Of a stretch of 5,658 bases of DNA, positions 2,287 to 5,541 are shown in pieces. This DNA comes from Candidatus Roizmanbacteria bacterium. GTDB lineage: Bacteria; Patescibacteriota; Microgenomatia; UBA1406; GWC2-37-13. The stretch lies in contig JACPMD010000051.1 of the NCBI GenBank assembly GCA_016186235.1, positions 1-5,658 on the forward strand, written 5' to 3'. The notes under the pieces are model-generated. The model did no database searches. It saw only the letters and a program-made list of their open reading frames with translations, and was not told the origin of the DNA. How positions within the stretch are numbered: the first letter of the stretch is position 1; the number at the start of each line of letters is the position of its first letter. Position numbers and translations under genes: made by a program.

Positions 2287-2922
2287 GTGAGAACCCTAGA
2301 AGAACGCAGAAAGAGAGCTAAAAAAATTATTAAGGAGTTAAAAAAACTCTTTCCGCGTGCAAAAATATCGCTGAACTACTCGAATAATTGGGAACTTTTG
2401 GTTGCGGTGATGCTTTCCGCGCAATGTACCGATAGGATGGTAAATAAAGTAACTGAAAAACTTTTTAAGAAATATAAGACCCTCGATAATTATACAAAAG
2501 CAGACCAAAAGGATTTTGAACAGGATATTCGATCGACCGGTTTCTATCGAAATAAGGCAAAGAATATTTTAGCAACTGCGAAAATAATTAAAGAAAAGTT
2601 TCACGGCAAAGTTCCAAATACTATGAAGGATCTTCTGACTTTGCGTGGAGTCGCCAGAAAAACAGCCAATGTAGTTTTAGGCAATGCCTATGGCATTTTT
2701 GCAGGGATTGCCGTCGATACCCATGTAAGAAGGCTTGCAAAACTCTATGGTCTTACAGAAAATAACAATCCAGATAAAATTGAACGAGACCTAATGGAGA
2801 TTATTCCAAAAAAAGAATGGTTTGATTTTACCTATAGAATGATTGCTTATGGAAGAACGTATTGTTTTGCAAGACGTCATGATCACGATAAATGCCCATT
2901 AGCCAAAAATAGTTTAAGCTAA
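2287..2922 (+). CDS. nth: Endonuclease III (DNA glycosylase/AP lyase) with degenerate iron-sulfur site
   Basis: Nth removes oxidised pyrimidines from DNA and cuts the resulting abasic site by beta-elimination (base excision repair). The 211 residues equal the E. coli length. Features are VAVMLSAQCTD near residue 40, the helix-hairpin-helix LRGVARKTANVVL (119-131) with catalytic Lys125, and AVDTHVRR with catalytic Asp144. The C-terminal 4Fe-4S motif C-x6-C-x2-C-x5-C is damaged: in perfect register the four positions read Cys193, His200, Cys203, Ser209. With only two cysteines plus a histidine, a normal cluster is unlikely; some Nth relatives are known to lack it. Catalytic residues are intact, so the enzyme may still work, perhaps with altered DNA scanning. 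The GTG at 2287 follows radC by 11 bp, without a strong ribosome binding site. The 3' end overlaps the convergent polymerase gene by 9 bp. Confidence 0.94.
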   Translation: MRTLEERRKRAKKIIKELKKLFPRAKISLNYSNNWELLVAVMLSAQCTDRMVNKVTEKLFKKYKTLDNYTKADQKDFEQDIRSTGFYRNKAKNILATAKIIKEKFHGKVPNTMKDLLTLRGVARKTANVVLGNAYGIFAGIAVDTHVRRLAKLYGLTENNNPDKIERDLMEIIPKKEWFDFTYRMIAYGRTYCFARRHDHDKCPLAKNSLS

Positions 2923-4082
2923 TGACATAATGGGAATTTTTAATTTTGATTTTTTCTTCTGGTGCTCAATTTTTTGTTTATCAAAGAGCATAGAGCCAAA
3001 GTCTACTTTCTTTTCTTCTAAGAGGGGATAAATTCTTTTTACTTTTTCTTCACGAATATGATTTTGCTCAAAAAGTTCCATTTGATTGTCCGATGTAACA
3101 TCGGACTCAAGGTTAGAGATATAACAACCCGTAGATCGATAGAGATGACCTTTCTGATATATTTCCACAAATGCCTTTTTTAGTTCATTCCGAATTAAGT
3201 ACGGATATGCGGTTTTTTTTAGGAGTTTGACTTCTTTTGTATAATACTCGAAATTTTGTGTCTTCAAAAATGGCGTTACTTTGCCTACGAGATAATGGAA
3301 CTTGCGCGCTTGTTGAAAGGCGTCCTCAATATGGCTTAATACCTTTGCACATAAAATATTTTTATCGTTCGTGGAGGGCGTAAACGTTTGGGAACGGGTG
3401 ATTCCCTTATATGATCGTTTTCCTTGGAGGTCGAGTTCATAGATTTTTTCGCCCCGAAGCTCCTGCCAAATCTCAAAGAATGGTTTTGAGAGACGAGCTA
3501 TAATAAAATTTTCTGACTTTAGAGCAAAGTCTAACGCGGTAAAGATACCCAACTTATTAAGGTAAGAAGAAGTATTTGTGCCTATCCCCCATACGTCTTT
3601 CACAGGAGTAGTTTTTAGAATTTTCTCGATATCTTTTCCTTTCACTAGAGTAAGTCCCGATGGTTTTTGAAAAGAGGAAGCAAGCTTTGCGAGCGATTTG
3701 GTGACAGAAATACCAATAGAGATCGTAATTCCAAGCGAAGATTCTATCTTGTTTTTTATGGCTTTGCCTATTTCGTAGTAAGTCATATTGAGGGGTCTTC
3801 TGAGACCTTTTATATCGGCGAATGCCTCATCTACCGAATATTCTTCAACAGCCGGGGTGAATGAGCGAAGAATAGTGAACATCTTATGAGAGAAGAGATT
3901 GTATAATTCGTAATCAGAGGGTAGAGTGATACAAGACGGACATATTTTTTTGATCTGCCACATGAGCATGCCTCGTTTCACCCCGTATTGAGTGCAGGGT
4001 GAACGGCTTGGAATACCGAGCAGAAGAAAGCATCTCCATCGAGATGAAGAATAACATTCGGCCAGGAGTCGATCTGAAACAT
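2914..4082 (-). pseudogene. Y-family translesion DNA polymerase (DinB/UmuC type), broken by internal deletion and frameshift
   Basis: The gene begins at ATG 4082, four bases after the LexA-like stop. The first 34 codons (4082-3978) give a Y-family N-terminus with VILHLDGDAFFCSV, containing the metal-binding Asp15 and steric-gate Phe20, then QAVHPALNTG and a TGA. The remaining 355 residues run in another frame from 3981 to 2914, starting VKRGMLMWQIKKICP. They hold the catalytic SVDEAFAD (residues 49-56 of that frame), KPSGLTLV, a helix-hairpin-helix at 127-155 (VKDVWGIGTNTSSYLNKLG) and the little-finger domain, ending near the family's usual C-terminus. Between HPAL and YGVKRGM, relatives carry roughly 25 residues (GKPVVV... 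to SYEAK), including the conserved dNTP-contacting Tyr-Arg region; these are absent. The second frame's GTG overlaps the TGA as GTGA, so coupled translation is conceivable, but the missing block argues for a non-functional polymerase. The usual Glu of SVEQ is also Phe24. The family identification is secure; decay is inferred. Confidence 0.85.
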
Positions 4083-4086
4083 AGGC

Positions 4087-4576
4087 CTAATTTGAGAATT
4101 TACGTATCACTGCTTTTACCACCCCGAAAATTTGAAGTTCTTGATGAGGATAAAAAGGCGGATATTTGGGATTTGCCGCTTCTAAGTAGATGGCTCGTTT
4201 TATTCTATCCCTTTTTAAAATTTTGAGCGTCCACTCTCTGTCGATTTGGGCCAATACTATGTCTCCTGAGATTGCTTCCTTTTTTCTTTCAATAATAACC
4301 ATGTCTCCGTCGAATATTCCAACTCCTGAGAGTGAATCGCCGCTTACCCTCAGAAGAAATGATGATTCGGGATCTTCAATTAAATACTCGTCAAGAGTGA
4401 GATAGTCCTTATGTTCATCAGCTAAGATAGGAAAGCCGGCTTTAATTGTGCCAAAAAGCGGGAGACTAAAGAATCGAGAAAGCGAGTTTGAAAAGACGTA
4501 ACATCTCAGAATATGAGGGGAGCCGTCTATATTTTCTATAAAATTTTTTGACTTGTGAAAGTCGGTCGGTAGACAT
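4087..4576 (-). pseudogene. lexA: LexA/UmuD-like SOS repressor-protease (S24 family), broken in the DNA-binding domain
   Basis: From ATG 4576, 36 codons (to TAG 4468-4466) encode a LexA-type winged-helix start: LSQVKKFYRKYRRLPSYSEM then LRLFKLA. The rest lies in another frame: SLPLFGTIKAGFP, with the Ala-Gly autocleavage pair at 4440-4435, then VSGDSLSGVGIFDGD with catalytic Ser at 4335-4333, GDIVLAQIDREWTLK with catalytic Lys at 4224-4222, and a GVVKAVIRKF ending at 4087. The S24 protease half therefore looks complete, while the recognition helix and wing of the DNA-binding half (about 30-40 residues in relatives) are missing at the junction near 4490-4465. The family normally represses SOS genes and self-cleaves with RecA; UmuD relatives instead activate the partner polymerase. 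The downstream polymerase gene makes this a lexA/umuD-umuC style operon. The ATG at 4302 is internal (GDMVII) and is not a credible native start. Alternatives are a recoded short UmuD-like protein or a sequencing/assembly deletion. Confidence 0.82.
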
Positions 4577-4612
4577 AAGTATAGTAAACGTTTGTTTACA
4601 AGTATAGTAAAC
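4577..4612. repeat. Pair of 13-bp direct repeats (AAGTATAGTAAAC)
   Basis: AAGTATAGTAAAC occurs identically at 4577-4589 and 4600-4612, start to start 23 bp apart, about two helical turns. Each copy supplies the left half of one inverted-repeat operator and, on the - strand, a TATACT hexamer. Only the copy at 4606-4601 is positioned to be the -10 of the LexA-like gene; the other ends one base before its ATG. The spacing on the same helix face suggests duplication of a regulator site. Confidence 0.85.
4584..4599. promoter_or_regulatory. Candidate LexA/SOS box 1, perfect inverted repeat
   Basis: GTAAAC-GTTT-GTTTAC is a perfect 6+6 dyad with a 4-bp spacer. Its layout resembles the Gram-positive-type SOS box (GAAC-N4-GTTC class) with a different core. 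It covers the predicted transcription start of the LexA-like operon, where a repressor would autoregulate. Assignment to LexA rests on position and symmetry only. Confidence 0.6.
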
Positions 4613-4630
4613 TCTTGTTCACTTTGTCAA
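4601..4630 (-). promoter_or_regulatory. Promoter of the LexA-like / Y-polymerase operon
   Basis: On the - strand a consensus -35 TTGACA (4630-4625) is followed after 18 bp by TATACT (4606-4601). The expected start is near 4594, giving a leader of about 18 nt before ATG 4576, with no Shine-Dalgarno sequence. The second operator box fills the -35/-10 spacer and the first covers the start site, as expected for an autoregulated SOS promoter. Confidence 0.7.
4607..4622. promoter_or_regulatory. Candidate LexA/SOS box 2, one mismatch
   Basis: GTAAAC-TCTT-GTTCAC matches box 1 in layout, with one half-site mismatch (GTTCAC against GTTTAC). It lies 23 bp from box 1, inside the spacer of the - strand promoter and one base from the -35 of the divergent mscS promoter, so one bound repressor could touch both genes. 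Confidence 0.55.
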
Positions 4631-4664: not shown

Positions 4665-5216
4665 ATGCCTACTATATTTTCTGAATCATTTATAAATAAG
4701 ATACTGTTTTCCTCGTTTATCTTGATTGTTACATTCATTATCTCTTCGCTTCTTCACAGAATCGTAAGCGCTCTTTTTGCGAGAGTAAGAAAAAGAGTTC
4801 CTTCTGGTTACCTTATAACAAAAACCAGAACTATACGTTCGCTTTTGAAAAATATCGCAGACATAGTACTTTACTTACTCGCAATTTTGATGATCCTCTC
4901 AAACTGGGGAGTAAATATTACTCCTATCCTGACTGGCGCGGGAATTATAGGTCTCGCTGTTTCTTTCGGTTCCCAAACACTTATTAAAGATCTGATCGGA
5001 GGGTTTTTTATCATTTTCGAAGATCAATTTAACGTGGGAGACAAAGTGAGAATCAATAACGTTGAAGGAGAAGTTGAACGCGTTACGATGAGGTTAACCG
5101 TGCTTCGAGATAAGGACGGAAACAATATCTATATCCCAAACTCACAGGTAAATGTCGTAACACGATATCGAAAAGTTACGGCACCAAAGGTAAAGATTAT
5201 ACGCGCTAGAAGATAA
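4665..5216 (+). CDS. Small-conductance mechanosensitive channel, MscS family (short form)
   Basis: MscS channels sit in the cytoplasmic membrane and open under tension to release solutes on osmotic down-shock. The 183 residues show a first membrane helix at about 13-38, a second at about 64-82, and the pore-lining helix at about 85-112 with the family's Gly/Ala-rich TGAGIIGLAVSFGSQ followed by LIKDLIGGFFI. Then comes the beta domain: FEDQFNVGDKVRI (118-130), NVEGEVERVTMRLTVLRDKDG and IYIPNSQV. The C-terminal alpha/beta vestibule domain of E. coli MscS (286 residues) is missing; the protein stops soon after the beta domain with a basic tail, as short family members do. The ATG has no Shine-Dalgarno sequence and lies just after a strong promoter, pointing to leaderless-type translation. 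The gene is divergent from the LexA-like operon and shares its control region. The downstream small gene starts 19 bp after the stop. Confidence 0.92.
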   Translation: MPTIFSESFINKILFSSFILIVTFIISSLLHRIVSALFARVRKRVPSGYLITKTRTIRSLLKNIADIVLYLLAILMILSNWGVNITPILTGAGIIGLAVSFGSQTLIKDLIGGFFIIFEDQFNVGDKVRINNVEGEVERVTMRLTVLRDKDGNNIYIPNSQVNVVTRYRKVTAPKVKIIRARR

Positions 5217-5235: not shown

Positions 5236-5541
5236 GTGTTAATCCCACCATCATCTGCACCTAAACCGACTTACGTTAACCAAACATTTATTCAAAATGT
5301 TCAGAAAGGCATACCTGTAAATTGCCACGCAAATTATCCAGTTCAGCAGTCAGAAGGTTTTGATGGTTTATTCATCGTTACTACCAATGGAACGGCATCA
5401 ACAGCTTCTGGTACTACTCAGATAGAGTATGTAATTTATATACGTACTGACAGAATGGATCACAATATACTAACCGATCTTCTAAACGGAGCTAAGAAGA
5501 TGGAGCAGGCTGTTGAAATTAGGGAATTGAATAAGGTTTAA
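5236..5541 (+). CDS. Hypothetical protein, 101 residues, unrecognised
   Basis: I do not recognise this protein. It starts at GTG 5236; an in-frame TAG at 5224 means no earlier GTG or ATG is available, and no Shine-Dalgarno sequence is seen. The N-terminus is Pro/Ser-rich (IPPSSAPKP). The middle is polar and probably beta-rich, with a Thr/Ser/Gly run (TTNGTASTASGTT) followed by QIEYVIYIRTDR. The end is helical and charged (ILTDLLNGAKKMEQAVEIREL). There is no signal peptide, membrane segment or cysteine-rich motif; a single Cys is present. It lies 19 bp after the mscS-like gene on the same strand and is probably co-transcribed. A TATACT at 5229-5234 directly before the GTG is more likely chance than a promoter. 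The length, the amino-acid make-up and the in-frame position after mscS support a real gene, but not strongly. Confidence 0.6.
   Translation: MLIPPSSAPKPTYVNQTFIQNVQKGIPVNCHANYPVQQSEGFDGLFIVTTNGTASTASGTTQIEYVIYIRTDRMDHNILTDLLNGAKKMEQAVEIRELNKV

Follow-up and report, generated by a model that had tools for sequence, protein, structure and literature searches.

Our analysis of a 5,658-base contig from a draft genome of Candidatus Roizmanbacteria indicates that it carries a lexA-dinB operon with a block lost from each of the two genes, and that both losses very probably reflect contig ends that the assembler joined wrongly. The organism itself most likely has no such broken operon. The preliminary description of this DNA had left two readings side by side: either the lineage has lost its damage-tolerance switch, or the assembly is at fault. 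We favour the second because gapless losses of the same kind are found in further genes of the draft, rplK among them, while the first fares badly: the listed relatives keep both blocks, the retained parts show no significant excess of changes, and the promoter is intact.

The operon and its two junctions

The window (the whole stretch of DNA that was analysed) is one entire contig, C24, of a draft of 162 contigs and 820,033 bases that is rated 80% complete, and it contains no N. Along it lie recF, a tRNA-Ser gene, radC and nth, then lexA followed by dinB on the minus strand, and then a divergent MscS-like gene (Table 1). The two cistrons are closely spaced, with the dinB start 4 nt past the lexA stop. 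The MscS-like gene (4665-5216) is short at 183 aa and matches positions 27-178 of a 280-position model; read against that model, it lacks the C-terminal part or has it in reduced form. Beyond it, at 5236-5541, lies an open frame of 101 residues without a Pfam match.

Table 1. Positions of the lexA-dinB operon elements in the window
Feature	Position	Strand	Remarks
Promoter-like site of the operon	4601..4630	(-)	TTGACA, 18 nt, TATACT; 11/12 consensus matches
Predicted LexA operator 1, within promoter spacer	4607..4622	(-)	Matches GTRAAC-N4-GTTYAC
Predicted LexA operator 2, 7 nt upstream of lexA start codon	4584..4599	(-)	Matches GTRAAC-N4-GTTYAC
lexA N-terminal piece, 32 residues	4481..4576	(-)	61% to G007 LexA residues 1-33; start as in P0123
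Junction 1	4479..4481	(-)	83 nt fewer than G007 and G001; frame change; no N
lexA remainder with S24 protease domain, stop at 4087	4087..4479	(-)	PF00717 above cut-off; 93-95% to P0123
dinB N-terminal piece, 32 residues	3987..4082	(-)	75% to G001 DinB residues 1-32
Junction 2	3984..3987	(-)	67 nt fewer than G007 and G001; frame change; no N
dinB remainder (rest of catalytic domain, HHH motif, little finger)	2914..3984	(-)	PF00817 and PF11799 above cut-offs, PF11798 just under

Pfam domains and alignment to intact relatives confirm the original naming of the genes as a LexA-like repressor and a Y-family polymerase. The loss in lexA amounts to 28 codons and that in dinB to about 23, and in each gene the size is the same whether the proteins of G007, a relative assembled in a single contig, or those of G001, a fragmentary one, are taken for comparison. 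Both junctions fall within the ranges that had been proposed by eye (4490-4465 and 3990-3979), and the earlier estimates of about 25 residues and 70-110 bases come close to the values obtained by alignment. The 28 residues absent from lexA are those at positions 33-60 in P0123, a near relative, and we take them to be the recognition helix and wing by the established naming of LexA domains, as the preliminary description had it. In dinB the absent stretch of about 23 residues lies, again as described, between HPAL and YGVKRGM. Both dinB pieces align to one intact G001 protein, with 75% identity over 32 residues and 65% over 354 residues; since both pieces of a gene align to one intact protein, the breaks do not arise by chance.

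What the assembled genes lack can be stated in terms of the known families. The S24 protease domain of the repressor is present in the window, while the N-terminal winged-helix domain with its recognition helix, which P0123 possesses, is incomplete there and the frame is broken. LexA itself (3k2z) is the best solved match of P0123, aligning to its residues 9-187, although no match to the Pfam LexA DNA-binding domain was found at E 0.05 in P0123 or in the LexA of another family genome, G025. The gene order, with an S24 protein gene directly before a Y-family polymerase, also recalls UmuDC-type operons, and the UmuD chain 8gmt matches P0123 (E 4.8e-15); P0123 nevertheless differs in that its best match is LexA and that its protease part is preceded by an N-terminal region. 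UmuD is not known to have a DNA-binding domain. The polymerase resembles DNA polymerase IV (DinB, Y family) in its domains, and its relative P0003, in which the catalytic domain, the HHH motif and the little finger are complete, has numerous matches among DNA polymerase IV chains of solved structure; in the assembled window, by contrast, PF00817 covers only positions 46-147 of the 148 of the profile, and the catalytic domain is broken in frame.

Relatives of both proteins keep the blocks. From a search of 5.8 billion proteins we took the best 120 of 718 LexA matches and the best 120 of 1,898 DinB matches, the window's own protein being among each. The presence of the block was established by pattern in 112 LexA and 110 DinB proteins and read by eye from the sequence starts in the remaining 7 and 9. 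The whole block is kept in 118 of the 119 other LexA proteins, the one exception beginning inside it, and likewise in 118 of the 119 other DinB proteins, where the exception begins after it. In none of the 119 listed relatives of either protein is the N-terminus joined directly to the rest. P0123 (190 residues) is intact and contains the block; its identity to the window's LexA is 95% as aligned by the search and 93% when 129 shared columns are compared. P0003 (410 residues) contains the DinB block and is 83-84% identical. These are the nearest among the matches listed (93-95% for LexA and 83-84% for DinB), and none of them is a block-containing sequence from the same species. The closest genome found by means of the window's DinB is G001. 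In genome G021 the dinB match (L013) carries one internal TAG, possibly another draft fault.

Four relative-rate tests for each gene gave no significant excess of changes in the retained parts of the window's copy. One value exceeded 3.84, namely 4.13 for DinB against G001, and its direction was opposite to an excess in the window's copy. For LexA the largest value toward such an excess, with unique changes of 5 versus 1, was a chi-square of 2.67, which is not significant. Upstream, the promoter and the two predicted LexA boxes are intact: the region before lexA holds 3 promoter-like sites in 141 bases, against a mean of 0.3 in shuffled sequence, and predicted operator 2 lies 23 bases downstream of operator 1.

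Similar breaks elsewhere in the draft

If the joins are faults of assembly, the same lesion may be sought in unrelated genes of the draft and in genomes assembled without fragmentation. Our sample comprised the window and 60 further contigs, of which 9 proved to be all N, leaving 52 readable contigs and 295,869 readable bases. Proteins from 60 stretches of G007 and 20 stretches of G001 were compared with these by tblastn, seeking adjoining parts of a gene in different frames; the final scan counted frame-changing splits only, in genes with a best identity of at least 40% and a summed score of at least 60 bits. With the G007 queries 150 genes were matched and 9 splits found, and with the G001 queries 55 genes and 8 splits, two of the splits being the window's own in each case. 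Setting the window's two aside, the readable contigs contain 6 distinct splits that change the frame without a gap, of which 4 are firm. A further 3 splits in the draft sit on runs of N, one of these with the same sequence on either side. The firm ones, named after the matching proteins of relatives, are in rplK (ribosomal protein L11; 109 nt missing, contig C43, the single copy found in the draft), an FtsK-like gene (20-26 nt missing), an Fpg-like glycosylase gene (55 nt) and a transporter-like gene (77 nt). The two weak ones, of 250 and 4 nt, have flanking identities of 41% and 55-56%.

A looser first run, on 41 contigs of the window's draft (G000) and with 40 of the 60 G007 stretches, had given four additional splits with identities of 24-37%, three from G001 and one from G007. 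Two of these involve no change of frame, and all four were excluded by the filter applied later. A search for broken genes in the tRNA-synthetase family gave three matches in one contig, with one open frame and no internal stop.

The controls behave as the quality of their assemblies would suggest. Among 126 matched genes of the fragmentary G001 there are 5 splits, every one of which carries N, while in the single-contig G007 none was seen in 122 genes with G001 queries or in 152 with G000 queries. Since splits occur in the draft and in G001 and none was seen in the unfragmented G007, the lesion goes with fragmentary assemblies. We infer that G001 fits a curated draft in which faulty joins were replaced by Ns, and that the window's genome looks like one in which they were left in. 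Short scaffolding errors of metagenome assembly, as described in PMC5079060, arise where two contigs are erroneously joined, Ns being substituted if the error cannot be corrected, and the criterion given there is zero read coverage. The breaks described here resemble those errors in being short regions where contig ends are wrongly joined, many to a draft and some of them marked by N; they are unlike them in that the joins of the window carry no N. Several observations count against an assembly fault. Among the matches listed, none from the same species contains the blocks, and in one LexA rate test the window's copy has more unique changes, though not significantly so. In the sample, about 138 kb of matched genes contain 6 gapless splits, and two faults within 500 bp exceed what is expected of independent faults at that rate, though contig C37 (L105) also has two breaks within 700 bp.

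We therefore return to what the alternatives would require. Two short deletions may recently have removed the lexA-dinB damage-tolerance switch of this lineage while the promoter and operators were still fresh, and if this were true the contig would show an SOS system caught in the course of dying out from a reduced genome. Loss of SOS genes does occur in such genomes, and the only copies found of both genes are frame-broken: the search for intact copies that had been suggested at the outset found neither gene again in the readable sequence of the draft (with the 9 all-N contigs among the 60 further ones), so that the idea of cover by an intact second copy is unsupported. We nevertheless consider a real loss quite unlikely, since the same type of lesion is present in rplK and elsewhere in the draft, the sequence that remains shows no significant excess of changes, the promoter and predicted operators are intact, and not one of the 119 relatives listed beside the window's LexA, or of the 119 beside its DinB, joins the N-terminus to the rest without the block.

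Less probable still is that the joins are real and the assembler chose a deletion variant from a mixed population. Strain variants do seem to be mixed in this draft: on contig C10 (L042, 3908-4120) identical stretches of 59 bases flank 28 N, and the sequence that follows them differs slightly between the two sides, probably because one contig end was set down twice in a row, in the versions of two strains. The same luck would be needed, however, for rplK and the other broken genes, and we give this account very little weight. A functional two-frame layout bridged by ribosomal frameshifting or hopping, for which one might cite that each piece is readable in its own frame, we reject as having next to no probability, since recoding cannot supply codons that are absent and, of the relatives listed for each protein (119 besides the window's own), not one is without the block between N-terminus and rest.

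On the assembly-fault reading, short-read scaffolding would have made the two joins, the missing blocks would be present in the organism's DNA, and the operon would be intact and ordinary there. By analogy with established LexA and DinB systems, the two operators would allow LexA to repress both its own promoter and dinB, and DNA damage would lead to RecA-stimulated self-cleavage of LexA and so to release of the translesion polymerase. The face value of the contig is the loss of an SOS switch, and gapless wrong joins can mimic paired pseudogenes; before a gene is declared lost, it costs little to look for the same lesion in the other genes of that draft.

A nested tRNA gene in the same window

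Another irregularity of the window concerns its tRNA-Ser region. A complete tRNA-Ser(CGA) (1370-1458) lies inside an apparently broken second tRNA-Ser gene (1321-1487), whose 5' part ends at TTCGAA before the inner tRNA and whose 3' end comes after it, and an inverted repeat, TCCCGAT...ATCGGGA, surrounds the inner gene. The Rfam search of this region found only the tRNA. The nested pattern occurs in 2 of 72 family genomes, G001 having the same layout at the same place, so that the oddity is probably real and separate from the lexA-dinB breaks; a third assembly loss at 1321-1487 was considered and, for the same reason, dropped.

The predicted LexA operator in the family

The palindrome GTRAAC-N4-GTTYAC is predicted from its sequence and placement to be the LexA operator of this family. 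It occurs in 52 of 72 family genomes, whereas the reversed pattern occurs in 5 of the 72. The 29 dinB loci L003-L031 include 12 in which a full lexA adjoins dinB, and in 10 of these the palindrome stands upstream of lexA at a distance of 12-198 nt. Of the 17 loci that have no full adjoining lexA, 8 contain it; among those 17, L010, L027 and L028 encode an S24 protein without the N-terminal part. At L020 and L021 lexA stands beside dinB and the palindrome is absent; the LexA proteins there are 47-48% identical to the window's, and their operator may differ from the palindrome.

Further instances stand apart from dinB. In the window's own genome the palindrome lies 36 nt before a GyrB-like gene, so named by eye (L184, 1213-1228), and in G025 it lies 12 nt before a lexA standing apart from dinB (L185, 1038-1053) and 13 nt before a RarA/MgsA-like gene (L186, 1002-1017). 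These sites may mark a small damage regulon. Sanchez-Osuna, Barbe and Erill are said to have described in 2017 the LexA network of Patescibacteria, by title the same wider group, and their account likely covers such operons. For the present family of uncultured bacteria, a predicted LexA box would allow prediction of their damage regulon.
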